A stretch of DNA of 42,066 bases from Alphaproteobacteria bacterium (lineage in GTDB: Bacteria; Pseudomonadota; Alphaproteobacteria; UBA7985; JAUIBT01): the NCBI GenBank assembly GCA_030428255.1, contig JAUIBT010000027.1:1-42066 (forward strand). Direction: 5' to 3'. Below the pieces are notes generated by a model. The model was not told the origin of the DNA, did no database searches, and saw only the letters and a program-made list of their open reading frames with translations. Of this stretch, positions 20,112 through 42,066 are shown in pieces; position 1 is the first letter of the stretch, and every line of letters begins with the position of its first letter. The position numbers were made by a program, and so were the translations under genes.

Positions 20112-20128
20112 GGGGGCTGTGCTCGTTA

Positions 20129-23789: not shown

Positions 23790-23848
23790 GCGCGTCGCTC
23801 AGAGCGCGTTCACAAGCAAAAAAGAGACAATCCAAGTCGGAGGCAAAC

Positions 23849-25312: not shown

Positions 25313-25330
25313 GCAAAGGACCAAGCGCGC

Positions 25331-26119: not shown

Positions 26120-27002
26120 GCCTTGGGTGAACCGCCTCGGCTATCGCTATGGGCCCGTGATCGTGGTGGCCCTGGTGATCTTCGCGCTGTGGTACCTGGC
26201 CTCGATTGCGCTGAATGCGAATTGGGCCTTCGACAAGGCCAAGCGTCAGGGCATCACCTTGAGCCCGGTGGAGTTGGTGCAAGATACCTGGAGCCAGGAC
26301 AAACCGCGTCTGCCGGTGCCCCACCAGGTGGCGCAGGAGATCTGGAAGACCACCGCGCAGAAGAAGATCACCTCTAAGCGCTCGTTGATTTTCCATTCGT
26401 GGGTGACCATGAGCTCAACCATGTTGGGCTTTGTGTTCGGCGTTGGGCTGGGCGTCGGTTTGGCGGTGTTGATCGTCTATTTCAGGGTGGTGGACATGAG
26501 CGTCATGCCCTGGATCATTGCCAGCCAGGCCATACCAATATTGGCCATTGCGCCGATGATTATTGTGATTTTGAATTCTGTTGGCATCTCGGGGTTGGTG
26601 CCCAAGGCGATCATTTCGGCCTATCTGTCCTTCTTCCCGGTGGTCGTCGGCATGGTGAAGGGCCTGCGCAGCCCGGATCAAATCGAGCTGGATCAAATGC
26701 GCACCTGGAACGCCAGCAGCGCCCACACCTTTTGGAAGCTGCGCCTGCCAAACTCGGTGCCCTATCTGTTTGCTTCGCTGAAGATCGCTATGGCGGCCTC
26801 TCTGGTCGGCGCGATTGTCGGCGAGCTGCCGACCGGGGCTGTGGCCGGGCTGGGCGCGCGCCTTCTGGCGGGCAGCTACTACGGTCAGACCATCCAAATC
26901 TGGAGCGCCTTGATCATGGCTGCCATCTTGGCCGCGGTCTTGGTCAACATCATCGGGGTCGCGCAGAGCATAACCCTTAAGCGCATGGGATTTGTGTCAT
27001 GA
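26100..27002 (+). CDS. ABC transporter permease 1
   Basis: A 300-residue BPD_transp_1 permease with a first helix at about 18-38, a periplasmic stretch, then five more helices from about 105. The EAA-type coupling loop is in DQIELDQMRTWNASSAHTFWKLRLPNSVPYLFASLKIA. Start at 26100 (ATGATG, so 26103 is also possible) after GAGAGGGGGG; it overlaps the ATPase gene and, by ATGA, the second permease. The two permeases differ clearly, implying a heterodimeric channel. Confidence 0.9.
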   Translation: MMTWSYRPWVNRLGYRYGPVIVVALVIFALWYLASIALNANWAFDKAKRQGITLSPVELVQDTWSQDKPRLPVPHQVAQEIWKTTAQKKITSKRSLIFHSWVTMSSTMLGFVFGVGLGVGLAVLIVYFRVVDMSVMPWIIASQAIPILAIAPMIIVILNSVGISGLVPKAIISAYLSFFPVVVGMVKGLRSPDQIELDQMRTWNASSAHTFWKLRLPNSVPYLFASLKIAMAASLVGAIVGELPTGAVAGLGARLLAGSYYGQTIQIWSALIMAAILAAVLVNIIGVAQSITLKRMGFVS

Positions 27003-27844
27003 TGCTGTTTGTCCTCGCGGTGGCGCTTTGGGCAGCTTTGTTCGCGCTGAACCTGTGGCTGGCGCGCCCGGGTGCGCCCTCTTGGGCTGGGGTGGCGGTG
27101 CCCATCCTTTTTGGCGTCGCCTTGTTGGTGCTGTGGGAGGCAACCGTTCGCGGCTTCAACGTACCGCGCATCTTGCTGCCCGCGCCCAGCAGCATTGTGG
27201 CGACGATATTCAGCTCGCTGCCGATCTTGTTCGCCGATTTCATGCAGACCGTGGTCAAGGGCGCTTTGACCGGCTACCTGATGGGCTGCAGCGCTGCCCT
27301 CGGCGTTGCGATTTTGGTTGATCAGGTCTCTTTCTTGCGTCGCGGCTTGCTGCCGATTGGCAACTTCGTAGCCGCGCTGCCGATTATTGGCTTAGCGCCG
27401 ATCCTGGTGATGTGGTTCGGCTTTGACTGGCAGTCGAAGGCGGCTGTGGTTGTGGTCATGGTCTTCTTCCCCATGTTGGTCAACACGGTTGAAGGTCTGA
27501 TGGACACCGACAAAATGCAGCGCGACCTTATCCGCACCTATGGCAGCAGCTATTGGCAGGGGTTGATCAAACTCCGTTTTCCAGCCGCGCTGCCCTTTAT
27601 TTTCAACGGCTTGAAGATTGCCTCCACCCTCGCGTTGATCGGGGCAATCGTCGCTGAGTTCTTTGGATCGCCGATCATGGGTATGGGATTTCGCATCTCA
27701 ACCGCGGTGGGGCAATTGAACTTGGAGCTCGTTTGGTCCGAAATTCTCGTCGCGGCTTTGGTCGGGACGGGGAGCTATGGCTTGTTGTCCCTCGTCGAGA
27801 AACGGTTGACCTTTTGGCATCCCTCTCAGCGCGGCTCATCTTAG
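26999..27844 (+). CDS. ABC transporter permease 2
   Basis: A 281-residue permease with about six to seven helices, beginning with a hydrophobic MMLFVLAVALWAALFALNLWLA. The coupling loop is DTDKMQRDLIRTYGSSYWQGLIKLRFPAALPFIFNGLKI, and GAIVAEFFGSPIMGMGFRI is the typical next helix. ATGA overlap with permease 1. The extra N-terminal helix (residues 1-20) is not found in all family members. Confidence 0.9.
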   Translation: MMLFVLAVALWAALFALNLWLARPGAPSWAGVAVPILFGVALLVLWEATVRGFNVPRILLPAPSSIVATIFSSLPILFADFMQTVVKGALTGYLMGCSAALGVAILVDQVSFLRRGLLPIGNFVAALPIIGLAPILVMWFGFDWQSKAAVVVVMVFFPMLVNTVEGLMDTDKMQRDLIRTYGSSYWQGLIKLRFPAALPFIFNGLKIASTLALIGAIVAEFFGSPIMGMGFRISTAVGQLNLELVWSEILVAALVGTGSYGLLSLVEKRLTFWHPSQRGSS

Positions 27845-27879
27845 TCAGGCACAATTTTCAATTCCATAAGGAGGCAGAA

Positions 27880-28863
27880 ATGAAATTGAAAAGTATAATG
27901 ATCGCCAGTGCTCTGGTCATGAGCGCCGGTCTTGCACAGGCAGCCGACAAGGTGACCTTGCAGTTGAAGTGGGTCACTCAGGCTCAGTTCGCGGGCTACT
28001 ATGTTGCGGCCGACAAGGGCTTCTATGCAGACGAAGGCCTTGATGTCACCATCAAGCCGGGCGGCCCGGATATCGCACCGACCCAGGTGATCGCCGGTGG
28101 TGGCGCTGATGTGGTGGTCGAGTGGATGCCTGCCGCTTTGGCAGCGCGTGAAAAGGGCTTGCCCTTGGTCAACATCGCTCAGCCCTTCAAGTCTTCGGGT
28201 ATGATGCTGACCTGTCGTAAGGATTCTGGCATTTCCAGCCCCGCTGACTTTCCGGGTAAAACCCTGGGCGTTTGGTTCTTCGGCAACGAGTTCCCCTTCC
28301 TGAGCTGGATGAGCCAATTGGGCATTGCAACTGACGGCTCGGCTGGCGGCGTGACGGTGTTGAAGCAGGGCTTTAACGTTGACCCGATCTTGCAAGGCCA
28401 GGCCGATTGCGTATCGACCATGACCTATAACGAATACTGGCAGATCATCGACGCGGGCGTTTCTCCCGACGATCTGGTGGTCTTCAAGTATGCCGAGCAA
28501 GGCGTTGCGACCCAAGAAGACGGCTTGTACGTTTTGGAAAAGAACCTGGCTGACCCTGCCTTCAATGACAAAATGGTGCGCTTTGTTCGTGCTTCTATGA
28601 AGGGCTGGAAGTGGGCTGAGGAGAACCCCGAGGCTGCCGCTGACATCGTGTTGGAGAACGACGCAACGGGCGCTCAGACCGAAAAGCACCAGGTGCGCAT
28701 GATGGGCGAAATCGCCAAGCTGACAGCGGGCTCAAACGGCGCGCTGGACCCAGCGGATTACGAGCGGACCGTCAAGACCCTGTTGGCTGGCGGCTCTGAT
28801 CCCGTGATCAGCATGGAGCCTGAGGGCGCTTGGACCCACGCGATTACTGACGAAGCGCTGTAG
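27880..28863 (+). CDS. ABC transporter substrate-binding protein, NMT1/THI5-like
   Basis: A 327-residue periplasmic receptor. Residues 1-21 are a signal peptide ending A-Q-A before ADKVTLQLKW. The mature start, LKWVTQAQFAGYYVAADKGFYADEGLDVTI, is the NMT1/THI5-like fold pattern shared by ThiY- and RibY-type receptors that bind pyrimidine or flavin-like rings. AAGGAGG precedes the ATG at 27880, so the open frame upstream is not used. It closes the four-gene ABC set, before a strong terminator. Ligand inferred as a pyrimidine/hydantoin from the operon; not proven. Confidence 0.9.
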   Translation: MKLKSIMIASALVMSAGLAQAADKVTLQLKWVTQAQFAGYYVAADKGFYADEGLDVTIKPGGPDIAPTQVIAGGGADVVVEWMPAALAAREKGLPLVNIAQPFKSSGMMLTCRKDSGISSPADFPGKTLGVWFFGNEFPFLSWMSQLGIATDGSAGGVTVLKQGFNVDPILQGQADCVSTMTYNEYWQIIDAGVSPDDLVVFKYAEQGVATQEDGLYVLEKNLADPAFNDKMVRFVRASMKGWKWAEENPEAAADIVLENDATGAQTEKHQVRMMGEIAKLTAGSNGALDPADYERTVKTLLAGGSDPVISMEPEGAWTHAITDEAL

Positions 28864-29299: not shown

Positions 29300-30808
29300 A
29301 TGGCGGACAACAAGGCGCGACGACGGCGGCGCGGCCAAGCTGGGCCGGAGCCAGCGGTAGCGGCGCGCGCTCAAGGCGGAACCTGGCGTCCCATGTGTGA
29401 CCAAGATTGTCTGCGCATGGCTGAGGCGGCGATTCAGATCTTGACCGACATCGGGGTCTCGCAAGCGCCGCCGATCATGTGCGAGGCGATCACGGCTGCG
29501 GGCGGCAAACTCCACGACGGACGGCTGCTATTCTCGCAGGCACAAATTGCAGACTACCTCAAGCGGGCACGCCGCACCTTGCTGTTGGCAGGCCAGTGGC
29601 CCGAGCACGACCTCAAGGTCGGCAGCACGGCGGTCTATGCTGGCACCGGCGGCGCGGCCCCTTATGTGGCGGACCAGGCCTTGGGCGGCTTTCGGCCCTC
29701 CAGCTTGGCCGATCTCTATCAAGCCGCGCGCTTGGCCGACGCGCTGGAGCATCTGCAGTTCTTCGCGCGCTCGCTGGTGGCGCGGGATATCGACGACCCG
29801 CTGCGTTTGGACCTGTGCACGGCGGCGGCCTGCCTGATGGGCACCGCCAAGCACGTGATGGTGCAGGCCAGCCAGGCCCGCCACGTCGAAGACATCGCCG
29901 CGCTGTGCTATCGGGTGGCGGGCGGCGAGGCAGCCTTTCGCGCGCGTCCCTTCTTGTCGCTCAATGTCAACCACGCGGTGCCGCCCTTGCGGATGCACGC
30001 CGAGGCACTTGAGGTTATGGCCGCGGCTGCCCGCGCGGGCATACCGGTGCATGCCAATGTCTTTGGTCAGCTTGGCGCTTCCAGCCCTGTGACGCTGGCA
30101 GGATCGGTGGCGCAGACCTTGGCTGAGACGCTGGCCGGGCTGGTGTTCCTTGACACCCTGGTGCCGGGCGCGGCGGTGATCGCCGGACCGCGCGCCATGA
30201 TCACAGATTTGCGCAGCGGCGGTATGGCGGGCGGTGCGGGTGAACAGGTGTTGGCGACGGGCATGGCGGTGCAAGTCTTGCGCTTGTGGGACCTGCCGTG
30301 CTCGGTCATCGCTGGCGCGACCGACAGCAAACGTGCGGATTTCCAGGCGGGCTACGAGAAGGCCATGACCATCGCCAGTGCTGCCCAGGCGGGCGCCAAT
30401 CTCATCACCCAGGCGGCGGGCACCCAGGCGGGGCTCATGGCCATGAGCCCGGCGGCCATGGTGGCGGATAACGATATGCTGGGCGCGGTTCTGCGCAGTT
30501 TGTCGCCGGTGGTGGTGGACGAGGAGACGTTGGCGCTGGCCTCGATCAAGGCGGTGGTTGAGGGCGAGGGACACTTTTTAGGCCAGCCTGAGACCTATGC
30601 GCGGATGCGCAGCGATTTCCTCTATCCCAAACTGGCGGATCGCAGCGCCTTAGAGGCCTGGATGGCCGCACCGACAGCAGACATGGAGGCGCGAGCTTGG
30701 CAGCAGGCGCGCGCGCTTGCGAAAACCCACTGGCCCACGCATGGCGACCTGCAGACGCGGCGCGCGATCTTGCAAGAATTTGGGCTTCCAAGCGGAGAAA
30801 CGGAATGA
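29300..30808 (+). CDS. MttB-family (trimethylamine methyltransferase-like) protein, non-pyrrolysine
   Basis: A 502-residue TIM-barrel protein of the MttB superfamily. Supporting segments are MAEAAIQILTDIGVSQAPP near residue 39, a GTGGAAPYVAD stretch near 115, FARSLVARDIDDPLRLD, and the C-terminal YPKLADRSALEAW. It begins with a very basic stretch (RRRRRG, residues 8-13). No in-frame amber codon is read through, so it is of the pyrrolysine-free type; characterised relatives demethylate glycine betaine, proline betaine or carnitine onto a corrinoid protein. No corrinoid protein, corrinoid activator or methyl-THF transferase is in the window. It heads the accessory cluster and overlaps the next gene by ATGA. 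AGGAAAAAGGG precedes the ATG. Substrate unknown. Confidence 0.8.
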   Translation: MADNKARRRRRGQAGPEPAVAARAQGGTWRPMCDQDCLRMAEAAIQILTDIGVSQAPPIMCEAITAAGGKLHDGRLLFSQAQIADYLKRARRTLLLAGQWPEHDLKVGSTAVYAGTGGAAPYVADQALGGFRPSSLADLYQAARLADALEHLQFFARSLVARDIDDPLRLDLCTAAACLMGTAKHVMVQASQARHVEDIAALCYRVAGGEAAFRARPFLSLNVNHAVPPLRMHAEALEVMAAAARAGIPVHANVFGQLGASSPVTLAGSVAQTLAETLAGLVFLDTLVPGAAVIAGPRAMITDLRSGGMAGGAGEQVLATGMAVQVLRLWDLPCSVIAGATDSKRADFQAGYEKAMTIASAAQAGANLITQAAGTQAGLMAMSPAAMVADNDMLGAVLRSLSPVVVDEETLALASIKAVVEGEGHFLGQPETYARMRSDFLYPKLADRSALEAWMAAPTADMEARAWQQARALAKTHWPTHGDLQTRRAILQEFGLPSGETE

Positions 30809-31752
30809 AAATTGCCATCATCGGCGCCGGAGCCATGGGCTCGATTTATGCGGCACGCTTCGCCCAGGTGGGCCACCAGGTCTGGGCAGTCGATCTGTGG
30901 CAGGTGCATGTTGCGGCCATCAACGGCGACGGCTTGCGGGTCGATGGCCCAGCCGGGACCATCCACACTCGCCAGATTGTGGCTGTTGGCGCGCTGGCCC
31001 AAGCGCCGGCTTGCGATCTCTACGTCATTGCAACCAAAGCGGCGGGCGTTGCGGCTGCGGCGCGCGATGTCGCCCAACACACAACCCGAAATGCAGACGC
31101 GTCTGCAAGCGTGCTGACCATCCAGAACGGCCTGGGTGCGGGCGAAGGCATCGCTCAGCATCTCAGTCCTGAGCAGGTGCTGTTGGGCGTTGCCGAAGGC
31201 TTTGGTGCCTCCATGGTCGGGCCCGGCCATGCCCAGCACACCGCGATGAAGCGCATCCGCTTGGGCAAGATGAACGGCGGTCTGGATGCGCGGCTTGAGC
31301 AGGTGGTGCAGATCTGGCAAGGCGCGGGCTTCGATGCCCAGGCCTACGGCGACATCGATCAGCTCATTTGGGAGAAGCTGTTGTGCAATGTCACCTTGTC
31401 GGGGCCTTGCACGGTCTACGGCTGCACGGTGGCCGAGCTGCTGGCTGACCCGGAGCGCTGGCGAACAGCTCTGGGCTGTATGCTGGAAGCTTATGCTGTG
31501 GGCCAAGCGCGCGGGGTTGCCTTCACCTTTGACGATCCGGTGGCCTATGTGACCGACTTTGCCAAGCGGGTTGGCAGTGCAAAGCCGTCGATGCTGCAAG
31601 ATCACGAGGCCGGGCGGCTGTCAGAGCTGGACGCCATCAATGGGGCCATTGCGCCGCTGGCGCGCGTTCTGGGCATAGCGACGCCGCGCAATGATGCCAT
31701 CTGCGCCGAAATCCGCCAGCGCGAGGCGGACTTTGCGCGCCCACGGTCGTAA
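30805..31752 (+). CDS. Ketopantoate reductase (ApbA/PanE)-family oxidoreductase
   Basis: A 315-residue NAD(P)H-dependent reductase. The dinucleotide site is MKIAIIGAGAMGSIYAARF (residues 1-19); TIQNGLGAGEGIA and the catalytic Lys in LIWEKLLCNVTLSG, with SMLQDHEAGRLSELDAINGAI in the C-terminal domain, match the ApbA/PanE fold. Family members reduce 2-ketopantoate or other 2-oxo acids. As it is translationally coupled to an MttB-family gene inside a catabolic cluster, it is more likely a substrate-specific 2-oxo/2-hydroxy acid dehydrogenase than the pantothenate enzyme. Tandem 18-bp repeats overlap its 3' end. Confidence 0.82.
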   Translation: MKIAIIGAGAMGSIYAARFAQVGHQVWAVDLWQVHVAAINGDGLRVDGPAGTIHTRQIVAVGALAQAPACDLYVIATKAAGVAAAARDVAQHTTRNADASASVLTIQNGLGAGEGIAQHLSPEQVLLGVAEGFGASMVGPGHAQHTAMKRIRLGKMNGGLDARLEQVVQIWQGAGFDAQAYGDIDQLIWEKLLCNVTLSGPCTVYGCTVAELLADPERWRTALGCMLEAYAVGQARGVAFTFDDPVAYVTDFAKRVGSAKPSMLQDHEAGRLSELDAINGAIAPLARVLGIATPRNDAICAEIRQREADFARPRS

Positions 31753-31838
31753 ACGCGCCCGCGGTTGCAAGCGCACGCACGGTTGTAAGCACACGCACGG
31801 TTGTAAGCGCGCCTGGGCCAAGCGCGCTTGGGCCAAGC
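31737..31838. repeat. 18-bp and 15-bp tandem repeat tract
   Basis: Four 18-base units (31737-31754, 31755-31772, 31773-31790, 31791-31808) of the type GCACGCACGGTTGTAAGC, then two 15-base units (31809-31823 and 31824-31838) of the type GCGCTTGGGCCAAGC. The first unit contains the stop codon of the PanE-like gene; the rest fills the interval before the racemase gene. Confidence 0.85.
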
Positions 31839-31948
31839 GGTTTAGGATGGTGGAACGGAGCCAGTTCGCCTGCAAACCAAGGCTTCGTGCTTGCCAGCTT
31901 TGGCGGACGGTCTAAGCTGGTCATCACCACATACCGAAAGCCCAATCC

Positions 31949-32626
31949 GTGAAGCGCGTCTTTGTTCTCAACCCCAACAGCTCCCCGGCGATCACGGCCT
32001 CTCTGTCGGCCTGCCTAGAGCCGCTGCGCCGCACGAGCGCGCACGCCATCATTTGTTCTGAGCTTTCAGAGGCCCCCTTGGGCATTGAAAGCGATGCTGA
32101 TGTTGTCTTGGCCGAGCGGCTTGCTGAACAGCGAATCCTGGCTGAGCCTTGCCAGGCGGCGGTCATTGCCTGTTTTTCCGACCCCGGATTGCCAGCGATC
32201 CGTGCCAAAGCACGCATGCCCGTCTTCGGCATCGCCGAGGCCGCTTATTGCTCGGCCCTAATGCTTGGGCGGCGCTTTGGCGTCATCTCGCTTGGCCCGG
32301 CGTCGATTGCCCGCCATGCCCGGCAGATCGCCGACATGGGCCTCTCTGCACGGCTGGCCGGGGATCGTGCGATTGATATGAGCGTTGCTGAAGGCAACCG
32401 CCCAGACGCGCTGGAAACGATTGCCCTGGTGGGGCAGCAGCTCTGCGTCGAGGATGGTGCGCAGGTGCTGATTTTGGGCTGTGCGGGCATGGGCGGCCAC
32501 CGTGCAGCGCTGCAAGATCGTTTGGGCGTGCCGGTGATTGATCCGGTGCAAGCGGCGGTGGCGGTGGCTCTGAGCGCGCTTGATCTCGACTACCTCCCGC
32601 AAACCGTCAGGAGCAGCGCCGCATGA
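31949..32626 (+). CDS. Asp/Glu/hydantoin racemase family protein
   Basis: A 225-residue two-cysteine racemase-fold protein. It starts with VFVLNPNSSPAITASL, like hydantoin and allantoin racemases (VINPNTS). The two catalytic cysteines lie in VIACFSDPGL (about residue 74) and LILGCAGMGG (about 178). The start is GTG at 31949; no strong ribosome site is seen. It overlaps the next gene, a cyclic amidohydrolase, by ATGA, the arrangement expected for a racemase-hydrolase pair acting on a 5-membered cyclic ureide or imide. The exact substrate is unknown. Confidence 0.85.
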   Translation: MKRVFVLNPNSSPAITASLSACLEPLRRTSAHAIICSELSEAPLGIESDADVVLAERLAEQRILAEPCQAAVIACFSDPGLPAIRAKARMPVFGIAEAAYCSALMLGRRFGVISLGPASIARHARQIADMGLSARLAGDRAIDMSVAEGNRPDALETIALVGQQLCVEDGAQVLILGCAGMGGHRAALQDRLGVPVIDPVQAAVAVALSALDLDYLPQTVRSSAA

Positions 32627-33993
32627 TCGACCAGATTGTTCGCGGAACCTTGGTCACGCCGCAAGGCCTGCTGGAACAGGGCTGGCTGGCCATCAAGGGC
32701 GAAACCATCGCCGCGCTGGGGCAGGGTGAGGCTCCGCCTGCGGCCGCGGTCCAAGATTGGGGGCAGCGGCTCATACTGCCGGGGGTGATCGACGGCCAGA
32801 CTCACGCCACCAGTTGCCAGGGCCTGGCGGGCATCGCGGATACCACCCGCTCGGCACTGGCGGGCGGCGTTACGACTCTGGTTGACATGCCATATGACAA
32901 TCCCCTGCCGCTCGACCAGCCCCAGCGCCTGGCGGCTAAGGTGGAGGCCATCGCCCAACACGCGCACGCGGACATGGCGCTCTACGCCACGGTGACAGGT
33001 GAGACGGGCGTTACGCAGGTGCCTGCTCTGATCGACGGCGGCGTTGTGGCCTTCAAGATCTCCTCGTTTGAAAGCAGCCCAACGCGCTTTCCGCGCATAC
33101 CGGCAGACCTCATGCTTGCGCTGTTGGAAGCACTGGCGCAAACCCCCTTGCCCTTGGGACTACACAATGAAGATCAAGAGATCGTCTTGGCGCGCATGGC
33201 GGCTTTTCGTGCCGCAGGCAAAGATGGGATTGAAGCGCACGCTTTGGCGCGGCCCTTGGCTGCCGAGCTGGCGGCGACGGCTCAGTTCCTGGCGCTGGCG
33301 CAAGCCACAGGCGCGCACGCGCACCCGGTGCATTTATCGGCCGCTGCAGGCTTCCAGCAGGTGGCAGCCTTTGCGGGCTTGGGCGTTCGGGCAACCGGTG
33401 AGACCTGCGTTCACTATCTTTGGTTTGACGCCGCCAAAGATGGAGCGCGACTGGGCGCGCGCATGAAAGTCAATCCGCCCATCCGCGCAGGCCAAGTTGA
33501 GGGGCTCTGGCGCGCGATCAGTCAAGGCCAGGTCGCCTTCACCTCATCGGATCATTCCAGTTGGCCCATTGATAACAAGCTGACGGACTCGATTTTTGAC
33601 GCCGGGGCGGGCGTGCCCGGTTTGGAAACCCTGTTGCCCGCCTTTTTCACGGCTGCCGAGGCGCGCGGCTTAGACGCGCCCAGTCTGACCGCCAGCCAGC
33701 TCTGCGAGCGCCCGGCGCGGTTCTTTGGACTTGCCGACCGCAAGGGCGCGCTGGCGGTGGGGCGCGACGCCGATCTGGTGGTGCTGGAAAGGGGCCAGTT
33801 CACTTGGGACGAGGCCCAGGCCCATGACGGTCTGAATTGGTCGCCCTTCCATGGCCAGACCTTCGCGGTTCGCGTGGCGGGCACCTACCTGCGCGGAACA
33901 CTGGGCTGGGATGGAACAACAATCACCAATCAACCGGGCGCCGGGCGATATCAGCCGCGTGGCGCTGTTGGCTGGTATCAGAACGAAGGATAG
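32623..33993 (+). CDS. Cyclic amidohydrolase (dihydroorotase/allantoinase-like) with altered HxH motif
   Basis: A 456-residue amidohydrolase-superfamily protein. The usual H-x-H metal motif after the first beta strand is replaced: GVIDGQTHATS has Gln59 in place of the first His, with His61 kept. Other ligands remain: Lys145 (AFKISSFE), His181 (GLHNEDQEI), His237 (HPVHLSA) and Asp310 (TSSDHSSW). NPPIR and GVPGLETLLP are as in allantoinases and dihydroorotases. It should open or hydrolyse a cyclic amide but with a changed metal site. Coupled to the racemase upstream and followed by a DapA-like gene. Confidence 0.83.
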   Translation: MIDQIVRGTLVTPQGLLEQGWLAIKGETIAALGQGEAPPAAAVQDWGQRLILPGVIDGQTHATSCQGLAGIADTTRSALAGGVTTLVDMPYDNPLPLDQPQRLAAKVEAIAQHAHADMALYATVTGETGVTQVPALIDGGVVAFKISSFESSPTRFPRIPADLMLALLEALAQTPLPLGLHNEDQEIVLARMAAFRAAGKDGIEAHALARPLAAELAATAQFLALAQATGAHAHPVHLSAAAGFQQVAAFAGLGVRATGETCVHYLWFDAAKDGARLGARMKVNPPIRAGQVEGLWRAISQGQVAFTSSDHSSWPIDNKLTDSIFDAGAGVPGLETLLPAFFTAAEARGLDAPSLTASQLCERPARFFGLADRKGALAVGRDADLVVLERGQFTWDEAQAHDGLNWSPFHGQTFAVRVAGTYLRGTLGWDGTTITNQPGAGRYQPRGAVGWYQNEG

Positions 33994-33996
33994 ACC

Positions 33997-34923
33997 ATGG
34001 CTCTTTTGACCGCAGACGCAAAGGGCGTCTTTGTCATCTCTGTCACGCCGTTTGACGAGGCGGGTGCGATTGACACCCGCAGCTTGGACAGCGTGACCGA
34101 TTTCTATTTCGACAAGGGCGCGGACGGGCTGACCATCCTTGGCATGATGGGCGAAGCGCCCAAGCTGACCCAGGCCGAGAGCCGGGCGGTTGCAGCGCAG
34201 GTGATCAAACGGGCCGGTGATAAGCCGGTGGTGGTTGGGGTTTCGGCCCCCGGGTTGGCGGCCATCGGGGAGCTGAGCGCAGCCGTGATGGACATGGGGG
34301 CAGCCGGTGTAATGGTGGCGCCGCCTTCCAGCCTTAAGACCGATGCGCAGATCGTGGCCTATTATCACCAGGTTGCTAGCGTGGTCGGGCCTGGCGTCCC
34401 CATTGTCCTGCAGGACTTTCCCTTGGCCACCGGCGTTCATATCGCCCCCAGCGTGATTGGTCAGATCGCCAGTGACCTGGAGCAAGTGGTGATGCTCAAG
34501 CATGAAGATTGGCCGGGCCTGGAGAAGATCAGCGCCCTGCGACGTGCGGAGCAGGCCGGGCAACGCAGGCTGTCGATCCTGTGCGGCAATGGTGCGTTGT
34601 TTTTGCCAGAGGAGATGGGGCGCGGGGCTGACGGGGCCATGACGGGCTTTGGCTATCCAGAAATGCTGGCGCAGGTAGTGGCTTTGGCAGGTGCTGGTGA
34701 GATGACCCGCGCGCAAGATTTGTTCGATATCTATCTGCCGCTGGTGCGCTATGAGCAGCAGCCGGGGGCGGGGCTTGCGGTGCGCAAACACGTCCTGGCT
34801 CGTCGCGGCGCGATTGCCTGCTCAGCGGTGCGGGCGCCTGGTGCGGGCTTGTCTACGTCAGCCCTAAGCGAGGTCGAGCGCTTGATGGAACGCCAAGACC
34901 AGCGGCTCGCAGCGCTGGCGTAA
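33997..34923 (+). CDS. DapA/NAL-family lyase or dehydratase, non-canonical active site
   Basis: A 308-residue TIM-barrel protein of the dihydrodipicolinate synthase/N-acetylneuraminate lyase family. The Schiff-base lysine is Lys168 in VVMLKHEDW. However the pyruvate-binding GTTGE motif reads GMMGE (49-53), and the catalytic Tyr of the Y-x-x-P segment is replaced by Gln139 (LQDFPLATG). It is therefore not DapA; it may cleave or dehydrate a different 2-oxo or imino acid. GAAGGA precedes the ATG and only 3 bases separate it from the amidohydrolase gene. A role in the same pathway is inferred. Confidence 0.82.
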   Translation: MALLTADAKGVFVISVTPFDEAGAIDTRSLDSVTDFYFDKGADGLTILGMMGEAPKLTQAESRAVAAQVIKRAGDKPVVVGVSAPGLAAIGELSAAVMDMGAAGVMVAPPSSLKTDAQIVAYYHQVASVVGPGVPIVLQDFPLATGVHIAPSVIGQIASDLEQVVMLKHEDWPGLEKISALRRAEQAGQRRLSILCGNGALFLPEEMGRGADGAMTGFGYPEMLAQVVALAGAGEMTRAQDLFDIYLPLVRYEQQPGAGLAVRKHVLARRGAIACSAVRAPGAGLSTSALSEVERLMERQDQRLAALA

Positions 34924-34993
34924 CCGCAAACTGCGAGCGACGCGGCCTTGGCATATCCATCGGCAGGGCAAAGGCTACAGCGCTGCGCTCGGA

Positions 34994-35887
34994 TTAGCGC
35001 GCGCGGTTCAAGTCTGCTTGCCAATCATAGGCGGTCAGCAGGTCCCACAACTCTTGGCAAAATTCGGGGAACGAGGCTCGGTTGCGCATCAGGAGGCTAA
35101 CCTTGCGGCGGTCAGGTAGGTCTTGGAGCGGGCGAAAGACCAGATCCGGGCTCATGAAGCGGACTACGGATTGCGGCAGCACCGTAACCCATGCCCCTGT
35201 ACGCACCATGGCGGTCAGCGACATGGTATTATGAACGCTGACCCTGGTATCGGCGATGGCCTCTTGAAACGCACTGGTTTCGATCAAGCCCAGCAAATTA
35301 TTGCGAATGAAAGGCGTGGTCTTGATTTGCTCGATGCTGGGCGGTTCGGGCTGTTGGGCCAAGGCGTGATCGGGTGCGCAAATCAGGCCATAGGTATCGC
35401 TGAAGAGCAGGGTCGAGCGCACGTCGTTCAGGCTGTGCTCGCCTGAGGCGATGCCCAAATCCACCCGCCCACGGGTTAGGGCATCAACGACTTGCTGGCT
35501 GTCGGTGTCGCGCAACTCGATCCGGAGGCCGGGATGGCGTTCGGTCAGGCTGCGGATGGCAATCGGAAAGACCTGGGCCGCTATTGAGGGCACGGAGGCG
35601 ACCCTGATCAGCCCAGCGCGTGACTTAGCGCAGGCTTGGATGGCCTCAATCGTGTAGTCGAATTGGCGCAACTCGGTTTGGGCCAACTCAAAAACCTGCT
35701 CGCCCAACTGGGTCAGCCGGTTCTTGCGATCGCTCTCAAACAGGCGTTGGCCCAAGGTTTCTTCAAGCTGCTTAAGCGTCATGGACAGCGCGGATTGGGT
35801 TCGGCCCAGGCGGCTGGCCGCCTCGGCCAGATTGCCGGTCTGAGCCACGGTTGCAAAGCAGCGCAACATCTCGATCTTGATTGCCAT
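34994..35887 (-). CDS. LysR-family transcriptional regulator
   Basis: A 297-residue LysR protein. Winged helix at about 1-60: MLRCFATVAQTGNLAEAASRLGRTQSALSMTLKQLEETLGQRLF; then an effector domain with LIRVASVPSIAAQVFP, GRVDLGIASGEH and a C-terminal PEFCQELWDLL. It is divergent from the aldehyde dehydrogenase gene and convergent with the DapA-like gene. It most likely controls the ALDH-dipeptidase operon and possibly the MttB operon. An inverted repeat at 35890-35930 in front of its start is the candidate binding site. Confidence 0.92.
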   Translation of the reverse strand: MAIKIEMLRCFATVAQTGNLAEAASRLGRTQSALSMTLKQLEETLGQRLFESDRKNRLTQLGEQVFELAQTELRQFDYTIEAIQACAKSRAGLIRVASVPSIAAQVFPIAIRSLTERHPGLRIELRDTDSQQVVDALTRGRVDLGIASGEHSLNDVRSTLLFSDTYGLICAPDHALAQQPEPPSIEQIKTTPFIRNNLLGLIETSAFQEAIADTRVSVHNTMSLTAMVRTGAWVTVLPQSVVRFMSPDLVFRPLQDLPDRRKVSLLMRNRASFPEFCQELWDLLTAYDWQADLNRAR

Positions 35888-35889
35888 AG

Positions 35890-35930
35890 GTCAAATTTTC
35901 TGAAATTGCCTTCAAGGAATTGAATTTGAC
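35890..35930. promoter_or_regulatory. Inverted repeat in the lysR/ALDH divergent region
   Basis: GTCAAATT (35890-35897) and AATTTGAC (35923-35930) form a perfect 8-bp inverted repeat 25 bases apart, just outside the lysR start and immediately before TATATA (35932-35937), a possible -10 element for the ALDH gene. LysR regulators usually bind such spaced palindromes in the divergent promoter. Confidence 0.5.
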
Positions 35931-35983
35931 TTATATAACCCCAGTCCTAAAGTTTGCCTACCCCTAGATCTCTGAGGCATTTG

Positions 35984-37435
35984 ATGACCACGACACAGCA
36001 AAATTTCATCGCGGGCGAATGGCGCAACGGCCAAGACGTGATCGAGAACCGCAACCCCTCAGATTTGAGCGATTTGGTTGGCCTCTATGCGCAGGCAGGC
36101 CCATCGGATTTGGACGACGCCCTGGCGCAAGCGCGAAAGGCTCAGCAAGAGTGGGCAGGCTATGGCCTGGAGCGCAAGCAGGCGGTGCTGATGTCCATCG
36201 GCAACGAGTTGATGGCCCACGCTGAAGAGCTGGGCACCCTGCTGAGCCGCGAAGAAGGCAAACCGCTGGCAGAAGGCAAGGGCGAGGTCTATCGCGCTGG
36301 TCAGTTCTTCACCTACTACGCCGCTGAATGCCTGCGCCAACTGGGCGAAAACGCCGACAGCGTGCGTGCGGGCGTTGAGATTGACGTGCGGCGCGAACCC
36401 GTGGGTGTGGTGGCCGTGATCAGCCCCTGGAACTTCCCCACTGCGACCGCATCTTGGAAGATCGCGCCAGCTTTGTGTTATGGCAACGCGGTGATTTGGA
36501 AGCCCGCGAACGCGACGCCAGCCTCTGCGGTGGCATTGACCCAGATTATTGCCCGTCAGGACATTCCCAAAGGCCTGTTCAACCTGGTTATGGGCTCGGG
36601 CGGCAGCATCGGCCAGCGCCTGGTCGAAAGCCCAGAGGTGGATGCGATCTCCTTTACCGGCTCGGTGCCAGTGGGCAAGCAGATCGCGACGGCGGCCATC
36701 CAAAATCTGACCAAGGTTCAGATGGAGATGGGCTCGAAAAACGCTTTGGCGGTGATGGACGACGCCAATTTGGATTTGGCCGTTGCGCTGGCCTTGGGCG
36801 GCGCCTTTGGGGGCACCGGGCAGAAGTGTACGGCCAGCTCTCGCTTGGTGGTGCATGCGAGTGTCCACGATGCCTTTGTTGAAAAGCTGATCGCCGGTGC
36901 AAGCGCGATGCGGGTTGGCCACGCTCTGGCAGCCGACACGCAGATGGGCCCTGTGGTCAGTGAACAGCAGTTGGCCGAGAATTTGGCCTACGCCGAGCTG
37001 GGCCGCACCGAGGGCGCAGAGCTGGTTTGTGGCGGCCAGCGGTTGGAACTGGAGCACCAGGGCTATTACATGGCGCCGGGCGTCTTCGTGAACACCCGCA
37101 ACGACATGCGCATCAATCGCGAGGAAATGTTCGCGCCCTTAACCTCAGTCATCAAGGTTGACGGCTATGACGAGGCGCTGGCGGTGGTCAATGACACAAA
37201 ATTTGGCCTGACATCAGGGATTGTGACCCAGAACTTGGCCCGCGCCACCCACTTCCGTCGTAACGCCAAAACCGGTGTTGTGACCGTCAACCTGCCGACC
37301 GCGGGCACCGACTACCACGTCCCCTTTGGCGGGCGCGGGGACAGCTCCTATGGTCCGCGCGAACAGGGTCGCTCGGCTGCTGAGTTCTATACCACAGTCA
37401 AAACGGCCTACATCAGCGCTGGAGAGCCCGAGTAA
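35984..37435 (+). CDS. NAD(P)-dependent aldehyde dehydrogenase, alpha-ketoglutaric semialdehyde dehydrogenase-like
   Basis: A 483-residue aldehyde dehydrogenase. FIAGEWRNG at the start, ISPWNFP and WKPANATPAS for the cofactor, FTGSVPVGKQIA, catalytic Glu in QMEMGSKNALAVM and catalytic Cys in GTGQKCTASSRLVV. The KCTASSR segment and MGPVVSEQQL match the 2,5-dioxovalerate (alpha-ketoglutaric semialdehyde) dehydrogenase group, though related semialdehydes are possible. GAGG lies about 8 bases before the ATG at 35984. Its stop overlaps the next start (TAATG). It probably oxidises a semialdehyde intermediate of this cluster. Confidence 0.87.
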   Translation: MTTTQQNFIAGEWRNGQDVIENRNPSDLSDLVGLYAQAGPSDLDDALAQARKAQQEWAGYGLERKQAVLMSIGNELMAHAEELGTLLSREEGKPLAEGKGEVYRAGQFFTYYAAECLRQLGENADSVRAGVEIDVRREPVGVVAVISPWNFPTATASWKIAPALCYGNAVIWKPANATPASAVALTQIIARQDIPKGLFNLVMGSGGSIGQRLVESPEVDAISFTGSVPVGKQIATAAIQNLTKVQMEMGSKNALAVMDDANLDLAVALALGGAFGGTGQKCTASSRLVVHASVHDAFVEKLIAGASAMRVGHALAADTQMGPVVSEQQLAENLAYAELGRTEGAELVCGGQRLELEHQGYYMAPGVFVNTRNDMRINREEMFAPLTSVIKVDGYDEALAVVNDTKFGLTSGIVTQNLARATHFRRNAKTGVVTVNLPTAGTDYHVPFGGRGDSSYGPREQGRSAAEFYTTVKTAYISAGEPE

Positions 37436-38409
37436 TGCGGATCGACGGACTTCAGTACGCCAATTGGTCGGAAAAGATCTTCCGCCAACTGCGCGAGGGC
37501 GGGGTCGATGCGGTGCATGTCACCATCGCCTATCACGAGAGCTTTCGCGAGACCGTGCTGAATTTCGAACGTTGGAACCGCTGGTTTGAGCAGTATCCTG
37601 ACCTGATCATGAAAGGACTATGGGCGCAGGACATAGACCGGGCGCGCGAGAGCGGGCGAACTGCAATCTTCTTTGGCTTCCAAAACCCGTCGCCGATGGA
37701 AGATGACATCGGGCTGGTGGAAATCCTGCACACCTTGGGTGCGCGCTTTATGCAGCTGACCTACAACAACCAGTCGCTGCTGGCCACTGGCTGCTATGAG
37801 GCCGAAGACAGCGGGTTGACCCGCATGGGCCGCGAGGTCATTGACGAAATGAACCGCGTCGGATTGGTGGTGGATATGAGCCACTCGGGCGATCGTTCAA
37901 CCATTGAGGCGGCCGAATATTCTCAGCGCCCCATTGCCATCACCCACGCCAACCCTTACGCCTGGCAGCCCGCGCTGCGCAACAAGCGTCACGAGGTGAT
38001 TCAGGCCGTGGTGGACAAAGGCGGCATGCTGGGTTTTTCGCTCTACCCGCACCATCTGAAGGACAAGTCCGCCTGTACGCTGCAAAGCTTTTGCGACATG
38101 GTCGCGCGTGCAGCCGACACTTATGGCGCACAACACTTGGGCATCGGCTCGGACCTGTGCCAAGATCAACCGGATAGCGTGGTCGAATGGATGCGTGTGG
38201 GGCGCTGGACCAAGCGAATTGACTATGGAGAGGGCTCGGCTTCCGCACCGGGCTTTCCCGACATGCCGGCTTGGTTTCAAGATAATCGCCACTTTGGCAC
38301 GCTCGAGCAAGGCTTGCGTGCGACGGGCCTGAGCGATGAAGACGTTGGGGGGATCATGGGCAAGAACTGGTATCGGTTCTTTGCTGAGAACTTTGGTCCA
38401 CAAGGATAA
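37435..38409 (+). CDS. M19 (renal dipeptidase) family protein lacking canonical metal ligands
   Basis: A 324-residue TIM-barrel protein of the membrane-dipeptidase family, without signal peptide. The N-terminal H-x-D zinc pair is absent: IDGLQYANW has Leu6 and Tyr8 there. The bridging Glu of the GxEGG segment is Gln83 (GFQNPSPMEDD). Later histidines remain, His150 (VDMSHSGD) and His171 (ITHANPY), along with GIGSDL and GKNWYRFF. From memory the same altered pattern occurs in the P. aeruginosa protein beside the dimethylglycine demethylation genes (PA5396). It is unlikely to be an ordinary dipeptidase. It overlaps the ALDH gene and is followed by the 562-aa gene. Confidence 0.83.
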   Translation: MRIDGLQYANWSEKIFRQLREGGVDAVHVTIAYHESFRETVLNFERWNRWFEQYPDLIMKGLWAQDIDRARESGRTAIFFGFQNPSPMEDDIGLVEILHTLGARFMQLTYNNQSLLATGCYEAEDSGLTRMGREVIDEMNRVGLVVDMSHSGDRSTIEAAEYSQRPIAITHANPYAWQPALRNKRHEVIQAVVDKGGMLGFSLYPHHLKDKSACTLQSFCDMVARAADTYGAQHLGIGSDLCQDQPDSVVEWMRVGRWTKRIDYGEGSASAPGFPDMPAWFQDNRHFGTLEQGLRATGLSDEDVGGIMGKNWYRFFAENFGPQG

Positions 38410-38414
38410 GTCTT

Positions 38415-40103
38415 ATGTCAGATAACAGGCAAATGGCGGTGGCCAGGCGCAGTCCCGATCAGGTGATGCGTTTGGCGCGGCTGGGCTCTATGCATCAGTG
38501 TCGGCTCAGCTTTATGCGGGTGCTGATGCGGCGCATGGCAAGCGATGGCTGGCAATTTTCGCGCAAAGAGTTTGCGGTTGGCCCCGATGGCGTCGGCCAC
38601 GCGGTTTATGTGGCTCAAGGGCCCGAGCGGGCTTACTCCCTGGTCGCTTTTGCCCACGACCTGCCGGACGAAATGCGCTCGGACCGCGTGATCGCCACGG
38701 CTTGGGACGCCACCTTTGCGCTGTACGATGGCATTCCTAGCGCCGAGGACATCGCGCGCTTGTCCAAGAATGTGCCCTATCAAGAGGCAGGCCGCATATC
38801 CGAGCGCGAGCTGTCGCTGTCACGCGCCAATCGCTCGGTGCGCCTTTGGCAGCACGTGGTAAGCGCCCTGGCGAAAGGCGAGCAGCCGGACCGCGCGCAA
38901 ATTGATGCGGTGGGCTACCTGATGCGCACCACCGCGGTCTATGGTTCGGGCAAGTTCGGGGCGGCAGATTACAGCGTCATCGCCGACCGGCCAGAAATGG
39001 GGGTGCCCTTCCAGGCCGAGATGCTGTCGGTCTATCTAACCCGTGCGTTTGTTCGCGATCTGGTCAACCATATGGCCCGCACGCAAGGCGGTGCTGCGGC
39101 TGTGGAGCTTGCGCCCGACATCGCGGGCTCTTTGGGCATCGGCAACTCGACCGGTCTGGGGCTCGGGCCTTTCATCATCAACCACCCGGTGCTGTTCAAC
39201 AATTGGATCGCCGCGCGCGAAGAGGCCATTGCCCGCGTGCGCGCACTGGGCAGCGCCTCGGCGGACGCTCAGGCCGTGTTCAAAGACCTGGTGGCCCGCA
39301 GCGAACTGTCGATTGCGCGCTGGCGTTCGGAGCACCCGGTGCAGCAGGCCAAGATCGCCGACCTGCGGCAGGACATGGCCTTGCTCAAAGTACAGCTGGC
39401 AGAGTTTGATCTGAATAGCGCCGCGCCCTGGGACGCGCTTTTGACCTGGAGCGAAGAGGCCCTGAGCCTTGAAGGCCGCGAGCTTTTGGCCTCGCTGGTG
39501 CTAGAGCCCTATGGCGCGCTGGTAGACGATCTTGCGCCCAGCATGGCGGATCGGGACCCCGATGGCTTTCGCATCGACGGCTCTATGCCCGTGGGCGAGC
39601 TGCGGGCCCTGCTGGAAGCCAGCTATGGCTGGGCTTTGCCGCTGGATTGGTCGGCGCCCGAGCAACGCGCGCGCGCCTGGTACGTTTCAGCGGAGAAGCT
39701 GGAGCCCCGCCTGGGCGAGCGCTTTGAAGAGCCCATCGAGCCCTATGAAACGCCCCTGGCACCGGCACGTGACGCAGCGACGGCCTACGGCGACCTAGAG
39801 GACTGGCCAAATGACGAGCCCATCGCGGCCTTCTTGATGCGCCACCCCGAACATCGCTATACAGTGCGCCGCTCCCAAATCTCCGCTCGCGCGCCCTACA
39901 GTGAGATCAGGGACAACACCATTTCGGCCGAGCTATTCCCGGTGGACCTGCTGCGGGTGAAGCTGGCTTTCTTTGGCGCGACCCATTTCGACCCGCGCTC
40001 AGATCGCTGGCTGCGCATCACCATGTTTGGCAACGCACCCTATCCCGAGGCGCTCAGCCCCGACAATGCCGACCTTTGGGTCTATCCGGAGGCCCAGCCA
40101 TGA
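38415..40103 (+). CDS. Conserved protein of unknown function, 562 aa
   Basis: I do not recognise a family. The protein is soluble with no signal peptide or membrane helices. Residues 1-130 contain aromatic/acidic stretches (RMASDGWQFSRKEF, AWDATFALYDG); the middle has GSGKFGAADYSVIADRPEMGVPFQAEMLSVYLTRAFVRDLVNHMAR and GNSTGLGLGPFIINHP, which looks like an enzyme core; 270-370 is helical; and the end has MRHPEHRYTVRRSQISARAPYSEIRDN. An AAGGA site lies 8 bases before the ATG. It overlaps the DUF3726-like gene by ATGA, so the two are probably functional partners. Codon use resembles the neighbours. Confidence 0.85.
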   Translation: MSDNRQMAVARRSPDQVMRLARLGSMHQCRLSFMRVLMRRMASDGWQFSRKEFAVGPDGVGHAVYVAQGPERAYSLVAFAHDLPDEMRSDRVIATAWDATFALYDGIPSAEDIARLSKNVPYQEAGRISERELSLSRANRSVRLWQHVVSALAKGEQPDRAQIDAVGYLMRTTAVYGSGKFGAADYSVIADRPEMGVPFQAEMLSVYLTRAFVRDLVNHMARTQGGAAAVELAPDIAGSLGIGNSTGLGLGPFIINHPVLFNNWIAAREEAIARVRALGSASADAQAVFKDLVARSELSIARWRSEHPVQQAKIADLRQDMALLKVQLAEFDLNSAAPWDALLTWSEEALSLEGRELLASLVLEPYGALVDDLAPSMADRDPDGFRIDGSMPVGELRALLEASYGWALPLDWSAPEQRARAWYVSAEKLEPRLGERFEEPIEPYETPLAPARDAATAYGDLEDWPNDEPIAAFLMRHPEHRYTVRRSQISARAPYSEIRDNTISAELFPVDLLRVKLAFFGATHFDPRSDRWLRITMFGNAPYPEALSPDNADLWVYPEAQP

Positions 40104-40714
40104 AAAACGCAGTCATGAATAACGCAGTCATGAGCTACGCATTGATCGAAGTTGAGGCTATGGCCAAGAAGGCCGCGCGTGGCGCGGGGCAAAGCTGGGG
40201 CATGGCCGAGGAGGCAGCCAAAGCGGCAAGTTGGCTCTGTGCGCAAAACCTGGATGGCGTTGCGGCCTTGGCGTGTGCGCTTGGTAGCGATGCAGGGCAG
40301 GGCGATGCCTTGGCGGCAGCGGTTGCCATTTCTGACACTGCGGGCGCCTGGCCGCCAGAGGGCATGAGGCTGGAGGTGGCATTCGTACCGGCCTTGCTGC
40401 TGCCCTTTGCGGCCTATGCGGCGCGCCAAGTTGCTCAGCCGGTGACGCTGAGCTGGCAGGGTGGGAGCGCTGTCACGGACGGTCACCGCCTCTGCCTGGA
40501 GGATTTGCAACCCCAGGATCTCCTGCATTCACTAGGGCAGGTTGCCATCCGCATAGGCGGTACACTGGGCGAGCCGCAGGAGCACCGGACTCGCGCGGAG
40601 CCTGATGCGGCGGACTGGCAGCAGCTCGCCGATTTGGCGCAGCGCACCTACGCCCCCGCCAGCGAGGAATCGCGCCTTAAGGGGGCTGGAGCTGGCCTCA
40701 ACGACAACGACTAA
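40100..40714 (+). CDS. DUF3726-like protein
   Basis: A 204-residue protein with a conserved-looking N-terminus, LIEVEAMAKKAARGAGQSWGMAEEAAKAASWL, which matches my recollection of DUF3726 proteins. No catalytic motif is evident. The start at 40100 has GGAGG 7-8 bases upstream and is followed by a 15-bp duplication (40100-40114 and 40115-40129), each unit beginning with ATG; the family core would begin at the third ATG, 40130. It is coupled to the 562-aa gene upstream and followed by an Ldh2-type dehydrogenase 21 bases on. Confidence 0.72.
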   Translation: MKNAVMNNAVMSYALIEVEAMAKKAARGAGQSWGMAEEAAKAASWLCAQNLDGVAALACALGSDAGQGDALAAAVAISDTAGAWPPEGMRLEVAFVPALLLPFAAYAARQVAQPVTLSWQGGSAVTDGHRLCLEDLQPQDLLHSLGQVAIRIGGTLGEPQEHRTRAEPDAADWQQLADLAQRTYAPASEESRLKGAGAGLNDND

Positions 40715-40735
40715 CCGACAAACTGGGAGCGCCCG

Positions 40736-41746
40736 ATGATCGAGACCAAAACCTTGAGCCTGAGCGAGATCGAAGATTTGAGCCTGAGGGCGCTGATGGC
40801 GGCGGGCACGTCGGAACAAAACGCCCGGCCTCTGGCGGTCGCAACGGCGGCCACTGAGGCGGACGGCGTTGCCAGCCATGGCCTGGCTTACATCCCCATC
40901 TATTGCGAGCACGTCCAGTGCGGCAAGGTCGATGGCCAAGCCGTGCCGCTGCTCAGCCGCCCACGTCCTGGCGTGGTTGCGGTGGATGCTGCGACCGGCT
41001 TTGCCCACTCGGCCATTGATGTCGGCTTTGAGGCCTTAATCCCGCTGGCACGTGAACAGGGCGTCGCTGCCTTGGCCATCTCCAACAGCTACAACTGTGG
41101 CGTGCTGGGCTACCACACCCACCGCCTTGCCAAGGCCGGGCTGCTGGGGCTGGGCTTTACCAACGCACCGGCCTCGATTGCGCCGTCGGGCGGGTCAAAG
41201 CCTGTCGTTGGCACCAATCCTTTCTCGCTGGCCGCTCCTGGGCCGGATGGCGCGCCGGTCGTGCTGATTGACCAGAGCGCCAGCACCATCGCCAAAAGCG
41301 AAGTCATGAAGCATGCCCGCGAAGGTCGACCGATTCCGGTCGGCTGGGCTTTGGACCCTGAGGGCAATCCCACCACCGATCCCAACGTCGGCCTGAAGGG
41401 CTCTATGGCGCCGTCTGGTGGCTATAAGGGCGTCGGCATAGCCTTGCTGGTCGAGATTATGGCTGCGGCGATGACAGGTGCGACGCTGGGCATTCATGCC
41501 TCGCCCTTCTCGGGCACTGCGGGCGGGCCGCCCAAGACCGGCCAGTTTTTCTTGGCGATTGATCCGGCGGCAACCTCGGGCCATGGCTTTGCTCAGCGCA
41601 TGGCGGATTTGGTCGCGGCGATTCATGGGCAAGAGGGCGCGCACCTGCCAGGCGACGGGCGCGGTGGCAAGCGCCGAAAAGCGCAGGAGGCTGGGGTCGC
41701 GGTCAACGTGGCGACCTTGGCGCGGATCGAGGCGATCTTGGCCTAA
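40736..41746 (+). CDS. Ldh2/MDH2-family (malate/L-lactate/ureidoglycolate/imino-acid) dehydrogenase
   Basis: A 336-residue oxidoreductase of the Ldh2 fold. The family marker EADGVASHGLAYIP has the catalytic His in ASHG (about residue 46), followed by ISNSYNCGVLGYHTHRLA, PSGGSKPVVGTNPFSLAAP and MAPSGGYKGVGIALLVEIM. This family includes malate, sulfolactate and ureidoglycolate dehydrogenases and the delta1-piperideine/pyrroline-2-carboxylate reductases. The last two suit the cluster (cyclic ureides or cyclic imino acids). GGGAG precedes the ATG. It is the last gene of the operon begun by the ALDH. Confidence 0.85.
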   Translation: MIETKTLSLSEIEDLSLRALMAAGTSEQNARPLAVATAATEADGVASHGLAYIPIYCEHVQCGKVDGQAVPLLSRPRPGVVAVDAATGFAHSAIDVGFEALIPLAREQGVAALAISNSYNCGVLGYHTHRLAKAGLLGLGFTNAPASIAPSGGSKPVVGTNPFSLAAPGPDGAPVVLIDQSASTIAKSEVMKHAREGRPIPVGWALDPEGNPTTDPNVGLKGSMAPSGGYKGVGIALLVEIMAAAMTGATLGIHASPFSGTAGGPPKTGQFFLAIDPAATSGHGFAQRMADLVAAIHGQEGAHLPGDGRGGKRRKAQEAGVAVNVATLARIEAILA

Positions 41747-41930
41747 CACCAAGGCTGACTCGCTCCAGGTCGTGCCCCACTCGGCCTAGAGTCGGCAGAG
41801 CAATCCCCTTAGCGCCCAGCCGGTCGTTTCTTGGACGATGATCAGGTAACTGCCGACTGGTCTGTTGGCCTGTTCTGGCGCGACTGGGTTGCAAGTGGGG
41901 CGCGCGCCTTTGGGAGCGCCGGCGGCGTAT
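41747..41930. other. Intergenic sequence after the accessory cluster
   Basis: No gene, tRNA or clear terminator between the Ldh2-type gene and the 44-bp repeats. Small open frames on the minus strand are shadows of repetitive or GC-rich sequence. Confidence 0.5.
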
Positions 41931-42066
41931 CCACCGCCGCTACGCTCGGGGTTTGCGGGTTTTCTTCCGCAAATCCACCGCCGCTACGCTCGGGGTTTGC
42001 GGGTTTGCTTCCGCAAATCCACCGCCGCTACGCTCGGGGTTTGCGGGTTTGCTTCCGCAAATCCAC
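41931..42066. repeat. 44-bp tandem repeat with internal hairpin, continuing past the window
   Basis: Three complete, almost identical 44-base units (41931-41974, 41975-42018, 42019-42062) plus four bases of a fourth. Each starts CCACCGCCGCTACGCTCGGG and contains TTTGCGG-loop-CCGCAAA, a perfect 7-bp hairpin extendable by G-T/G-C pairs. The only difference between units I see is T for G in the loop of the first. 44 is not a multiple of three, so it is not a coding repeat. Confidence 0.92.

Follow-up and report, generated by a model that had tools for sequence, protein, structure and literature searches.

The window analysed here is an entire contig (JAUIBT010000027.1, 42066 bases) of the 3.5-Mb genome of an Alphaproteobacteria bacterium (assembly GCA_030428255.1), whose order is represented by 11 genomes in the search. 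Eleven genes in the interval 29300–41746 had been described, in an original prediction made from the letters alone, as a single catabolic cluster centred on an MttB-family methyltransferase. They are designated A (MttB), B (PanE), C (racemase), D (amidohydrolase), E (DapA-like), R (LysR), F (aldehyde dehydrogenase), G (M19-like), H (562 residues), I (DUF3726) and J (Ldh2). With moderate confidence, we favour a different reading: the interval would be a juxtaposition and not one pathway, and its right half a LysR-controlled betaine cassette, most likely for homarine, equivalent to the operon homABCDER and probably exchanged horizontally with roseobacter-type bacteria.

The division is seen in the surroundings of H. 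A scan of named genomes gave 174 relatives of this protein, the best 80 of which were kept as loci (58 extend over at least 21.6 kb, i.e., about 10 kb on each side of H). Because these 80 are best matches and mostly come from roseobacter-type bacteria, the counts describe that group. The full set R-F-G-H-I-J occurs in 58 of the 80 loci; G and I accompany H in all of them, F in 70, R in 68 and J in 66. C or D, sought at an E-value of 1e-5, was found in none of the 80; B and E are each present in one, at less than 30% identity. An MttB gene resembling A occurs in five (26–40% identity, two of them partial). The original prediction had proposed to look for the co-occurrence of the 562-residue and DUF3726-like genes with MttB: the first two are indeed constant companions, while the scarcity of MttB speaks against its joining them and against its place at the centre of the cluster.

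C-D-E also occurs independently. In a genome of the same genus (G001), its counterparts (71, 81 and 86% identity, respectively) lie in a 20-kb stretch that has neither A nor B, where the only representative of the F-J families is an aldehyde dehydrogenase at 34% identity. C adjoins D in other genomes as well. Searching plasmids with D returned 24 records, from which 13 loci were fetched and ten judged (L117–L122 and L134–L137); the remaining three, which have no annotation, were checked for the D motif alone. The racemase gene adjoins D in six of the ten (plus a fragment at the start of the record in a seventh) and the DapA-like gene in seven, and neither MttB nor PanE was found in any, L134–L137 being judged by their own incomplete annotation. 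The best plasmid relative of A whose surroundings were read (45% identity, on the Ruegeria pomeroyi megaplasmid) sits among other genes. At least two, and probably three, gene sets thus lie side by side in the interval: A-B, C-D-E and R-F-G-H-I-J.

A single pathway of eleven genes for an N-methylated cyclic amide is suggested by their placement side by side, and the genes for a corrinoid protein, a pterin methyltransferase and an activator located elsewhere in the genome would let MttB work. The link between MttB and the right half is not nil, since MttB genes adjoin G-H-I in two genomes of the same genus (L028 in G002 and L029 in G001). But the counts given above, the occurrence of C-D-E without A-B in G001 and the orientation of the LysR gene, which converges on E, argue against a common pathway; it was rejected on the neighbourhood counts, and we regard it as highly improbable. 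The comparison of neighbourhoods, which the original prediction had named as its own check, came out against the single cluster, and the reported cluster must not be handled as one pathway.

The right half, R-F-G-H-I-J, would in contrast be a self-contained LysR-controlled betaine cassette, as its neighbours in other genomes suggest. A BCCT-type carrier is encoded at most 6.5 kb from H in 43 of the 80 named loci; four of these carriers, each from a different locus, match PF02028 with 469–501 bits, two of them scoring below NCBIfam's BCCT cut-offs. Nine genomes of another class have H, and the three loci that were read all show R, then F-G-BCCT-H and a DUF3726-type gene. An OpuA-type ATP-binding cassette (ABC) carrier adjoins the cassette in two further genomes (the OpuAC domain was checked in one); among the genomes with such a carrier beside F-G-H-I is a single-contig one of 1.41 Mb. 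Twelve of 103 fetched loci encode RidA-type proteins, whose substrates are enamines and imines; in seven of them the gene lies at most 1 kb from H (four were checked with Pfam). The substrate proposed in the original prediction, an N-methylated cyclic compound or betaine, fits this half, with its BCCT- and OpuA-type carriers nearby, and not the whole cluster.

Two other settings of the H family were seen. The G-H-I locus of G002 also adjoins what reads as a dimethylglycine dehydrogenase gene, a further betaine context. In L032 (12309–15261) and L047 (13305–16244), G-H-I is followed by threonine-dehydratase-like, M24-like and racemase-like genes (assigned by reading), which we take to resemble the eut set for ectoine.

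The divergent region between R and F holds a motif that matches at a mean of 12.67 of 15 positions over 67 loci (window included), compared to 8.73–9.05 in 10 shuffled sets, a comparison in which common descent remains in play. The pattern TTGANTTTGACTKAT has a single site in the whole genome, and it lies at this motif. Promoter and terminator scans did not rise above the shuffled level; one promoter-like site coincides with the motif.

Homarine (N-methylpicolinate) is a common betaine of sea water. A paper of 2026 in Nature Microbiology reportedly describes an operon, homABCDER, in Rhodobacterales, SAR11 and SAR116, which is said to consist of five structural genes and a regulator and to lead to N-methylglutamate and glutamate. 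The right half resembles this operon in having a regulator beside five co-directional structural genes kept as a unit, in its roseobacter-type hosts and in the betaine carriers nearby, and differs from it in that the cassette of the window has no adjoining carrier. The literature search found no paper giving the genes of the homarine operon. Mgd is reported to take part in homarine catabolism (PMC13390433), R. pomeroyi draws homarine down rapidly (PMC12817926), and the degradation pathways were uncharacterised as of 2021 (PMC8269262).

If the cassette is devoted to homarine, a betaine ABC carrier would import the substrate. J, with its reduced DUF3726 partner I, would then reduce the pyridinium ring using NAD(P)H, which would give an enamine or imine, and H would open the reduced ring. 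G and F, the latter being nearest to C5 dicarboxylic semialdehyde dehydrogenases, would account for the loss of the former ring carbon and for oxidation of the semialdehyde, so that N-methylglutamate and then glutamate would be the end products. We infer every step of this route. No BCCT carrier was found in a search of the window genome; the last 326 bp of the contig gave nothing better than an E-value of 0.038, and none was found in the stretch of contig C56 next to the terminal repeat that it shares with the window (see below). The genome has three OpuAC matches, two of them strong.

Besides the MttB genes next to G-H-I, several points weigh against the homarine assignment. Equating F-J and R with homABCDER, gene by gene, relies on the overall fit to the operon as reported. 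Only 43 of the 80 loci have a BCCT carrier nearby, and the window has none. At the thresholds used for these absences (60% identity within 8 kb), 14 of the 80 named loci lack J and ten lack F, some of these loci being cut by contig ends, and no J was found in the three stretches from the other class. Against the proposed route in particular, no oxygenase family was recognised in the cassette, though taking one carbon out of the ring might call for such an enzyme. The genome has two SoxD/SoxA-family sets, either of which may be N-methylglutamate dehydrogenase or sarcosine oxidase; PF01493 (GXGXG) matches only one frame of GltB length, which bears on the synthase and not on N-methylglutamate dehydrogenase. 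Finally, R. pomeroyi grew less well on homarine than on trigonelline, according to PMC8269262.

The same design might instead serve another substrate, such as trigonelline, proline betaine, the betaines of pipecolate or hydroxyproline, or another marine betaine. The carriers indicate betaines in general and not homarine in particular, and the gene content differs between loci. F is nearest to alpha-ketoglutaric semialdehyde dehydrogenases (485 bits with NF042993, whose cut-off is 770), enzymes that belong to hydroxyproline and uronate routes. On the other hand, the number of genes, the regulator and the spread among roseobacters fit the hom operon as reported. The trigonelline version meets a further difficulty: that route begins with the TgnA/TgnB oxygenase (named in PMC8269262), of which no counterpart was seen here. 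We consider another substrate a possibility of limited weight and retain homarine as the preferred one. The original prediction knew of no described pathway with this set of genes; for the right half this probably no longer stands, the homarine operon being probably its published counterpart.

The cassette was probably exchanged horizontally between lineages, including roseobacter-type bacteria, as the tree of H suggests. H is present in 15 of 61 relatives of the window genome and in 29 of 398 genomes of the phylum (the window genome being counted in both cases), and its hosts among the best matches in named genomes are mostly roseobacter-type. A tree of H was built from 49 rows, including 25 of the 50 named alignment rows; its bootstrap had not settled. 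The window copy falls in a set of 22 rows (support 99/94) with rows from Roseobacteraceae, Paracoccaceae and Stappiaceae, while the copies from the same genus (G001 and G002) and five from the same order are on another branch. Two other copies from the same order (G004 and G006) lie just outside the window's set, which slightly lowers confidence in the preferred reading; the exchange may have gone in either direction and may be early or late. If the homarine assignment is true, these genes mark a lineage as using homarine, while its close relatives possess a different version of the set. The interval is probably ordinary in that its main part is a published operon within an assembly of modules; its interest lies in the spread of the cassette and in the unexplained proteins described below.

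The 562-residue protein H had been assigned to no known family, and this still holds after Pfam, PDB sequence and fold searches, none of which gave a confident match. Over 51 members, the best Pfam E-value is 0.0035, in three members, which is at chance level, and the PDB sequence search returned nothing below 0.17. The AlphaFold2 model has a predicted local distance difference test (pLDDT) score of 82 and a predicted template modelling score of 0.87. Identification by fold was rejected: the best Foldseek E-value (0.57) and the best VIA Z score (3.8) are unusable, and a new fold is not implied. Over 65 sequences, 104 residues are invariant. In the low-confidence segments of the model 29 of 59 residues are invariant, against 18.5% overall, so that the most conserved loops of H are among those which the model cannot place; this would suit an active site dependent on a ligand or a partner.

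The model of I (pLDDT 87.8) matches 14 Ldh2-family entries with VIA Z scores of 9.5–11.0 over 162–173 residues, the next row being at 3.4. Foldseek also places Ldh2 entries first, with a best E-value of 0.12. A relative of I in L166 passes PF12525 and, narrowly, PF02615 (41.4 against 38.8 bits). The link between DUF3726 and Ldh2 rests on the VIA scores and on this bridging sequence: the comparison of profiles aligned 33 columns with 18% probability, and the PDB sequence search with DUF3726 gave no match. The literature search found no publication on DUF3726. J is a full member of the Ldh2 family, which comprises type-2 malate/lactate, ureidoglycolate and Delta1-piperideine-2-carboxylate enzymes, and S47, H48 and G49 are invariant in its 17 rows; we take this SHG stretch to carry the catalytic histidine of the family. 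I shares the fold in predicted structure, but it is about 195 residues long instead of about 335, has no invariant histidine in 38 DUF3726 rows, and nothing in it corresponds to the SHG stretch of J. DUF3726 thus looks like a reduced Ldh2-fold protein, which is new in this analysis. The families of the right-half proteins, their linkage and the R-F motif are sequence features, and the I-J relation is one of predicted structure.

G matches Peptidase M19, the renal dipeptidase family, and aligns with its nearest solved chain, 2i5g, over 319 residues. The metal ligands of this family are presumably HxD and a bridging glutamate. G carries IDGLQYANW at what we take to be the place of HxD; all aligned dipeptidases except 2i5g begin only after HxD, so that this place was assigned by reading, and HxD is present there in none of 90 readable relatives (one of 91 was not readable). 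A glutamine is found at the place of the GliJ glutamate in all 90. From its sequence, G is an M19-like protein that lacks the usual metal-ligand motifs, another point new in this analysis.

A more specific set of roles may be put forward, tentatively: H would be an enzyme of a new kind, without any relative of solved structure, which opens the ring of a reduced N-methylpyridinium betaine; DUF3726 would be a catalytically dead copy of Ldh2 kept as the partner of H or as a pseudo-subunit of J; and the M19-like protein would work without the usual metal pair. With the link of DUF3726 to Ldh2, the metal-less M19-like protein and a 562-residue family that has no confident fold match, vague annotations become concrete biochemical questions.

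In the left half, A-B is probably a pair consisting of an MttB-type demethylase and a reductase, placed beside C-D-E. The frame of A is open without TAG, and its score with the model of pyrrolysine trimethylamine methyltransferase (TIGR02369) is 270.7 bits, below the cut-off of 525. Its nearest solved chain is the glycine betaine methyltransferase 9yce (165 bits). A resembles non-pyrrolysine MttB enzymes such as the glycine betaine methyltransferase MtgB, matching 9yce and 2qne over 436 residues, but its cluster has no corrinoid gene. The genome has MttB matches at 11 places, i.e., about nine genes after split and edge pieces are merged. Elsewhere it encodes a single B12-binding_2 protein (best model MtgC, below cut-off), a methyltetrahydrofolate:corrinoid methyltransferase-type gene above cut-off and an AcsV/RACo-like gene below cut-offs. 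These corrinoid, methyltransferase and activator genes could serve A. In alphaproteobacteria, however, methionine synthase can be split into parts of this kind, and the single corrinoid protein may be one of them instead.

The gene content of C-D-E suggests a set of its own that opens the ring of a hydantoin-like amide, and whose product could be taken by the N-carbamoyl hydrolase family gene located upstream, at 22539–23789. C-D-E might alternatively carry out an ErtD-type step for ergothioneine, in which case MttB would act on the betaine group, in ergothioneine itself or in hercynine. In favour of this are the position of D nearest to the two models of ErtD, the hydantoin-5-propionate amidohydrolase, and the same upstream gene. 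D also shares the QxH motif with a relative in L113 that passes the ErtD cut-off (684 bits); the motif, in which a glutamine presumably stands where the first metal histidine belongs, is present in 17 of 18 readable relatives of D (L117 was not readable). But D falls below both ErtD cut-offs (NF058538 in the table; 337 bits against 650 for NF058539), two relatives at 65–69% identity also stay below the cut-off of 600, its partners are a racemase and a DapA-like lyase, and its neighbours elsewhere include amino-acid ABC carriers and short-chain dehydrogenases/reductases. The ErtD reading of D was not adopted, its score being below cut-off and no search aimed at ergothionase having been made, and we hold an ergothioneine step to be quite improbable. 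The hydantoin-like amide remains the preferred class of substrate for C-D-E.

The features of the interval are listed in the table. The eleven genes, their strands and their families agree with the original prediction, Pfam and NCBIfam matches confirming them. The two tightly coupled runs that it described stand only in part. Coupling is tight within A-B (7-bp overlap), within C-D-E (4-bp overlap of C and D, 3-bp gap between D and E) and along F-J, while B and C are split by a 196-bp spacer containing tandem repeats. Because of this spacer, and because R runs towards E and away from F, there would be at least two, and probably three, transcription units.

Table. Features of the interval and of the end of the contig.
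Feature	Module	Position	Strand	Evidence
A, MttB-superfamily protein	1a	29300..30808	+	PF06253, 343 bits, residues 5-489 (full length)
B, PanE/ApbA-type NAD(P) reductase	1a	30802..31752	+	TIGR00745, 216.5 bits (cut-off 141.35)
C, Asp/Glu/hydantoin racemase family	1b	31949..32626	+	PF01177, 173.9 bits
D, cyclic amidohydrolase	1b	32623..33993	+	NF058538, 486.1 bits (cut-off 600)
E, DapA/DHDPS-like lyase	1b	33997..34923	+	PF00701, 105.7 bits
R, LysR regulator	2	34994..35887	-	PF00126 and PF03466
Motif TTGAATTTGACTTAT between R and F, holding T-N11-A and a TTGACT hexamer		35920..35934	+	Conserved over 67 loci
F, aldehyde dehydrogenase	2	35984..37435	+	PF00171, 505.5 bits; ATG at 35984
G, M19-like protein	2	37435..38409	+	PF01244, 238.9 bits
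H, 562-residue protein	2	38415..40103	+	No Pfam match at E 0.001
I, DUF3726 protein	2	40130..40714	+	PF12525, 54.5 bits; long open reading frame from 40076, conserved start Met at 40130
J, Ldh2-type NAD(P) dehydrogenase	2	40736..41746	+	PF02615, 310 bits
44-bp tandem repeat ending the contig		41929..42066	.	Same repeat at the end of contig C56

A 15-bp tandem repeat (40095–40141) at the start of the DUF3726 gene gives rise to several in-frame ATG codons. The 44-bp repeat that ends the window is also present at 240221–240377 of contig C56 (240420 bases); since it is common to both ends, the two contigs may lie next to each other in the genome. Contig C48 has a third copy, which is single and differs by two mismatches. 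In the stretch of C56 beside the repeat, the first gene is FabH-like (family by reading).

Upstream of the interval, positions 16574–28863 carry a set for reductive pyrimidine catabolism. The 446-residue gene at 16574 gave no match at 1e-100. The set also has a hydantoinase/carbamoylase family amidase and, by reading, an ABC carrier, and its PreA (714 bits, cut-off 335), dihydropyrimidinase (586, cut-off 393) and omega-aminotransferase (743, cut-off 500) all score well above their cut-offs.

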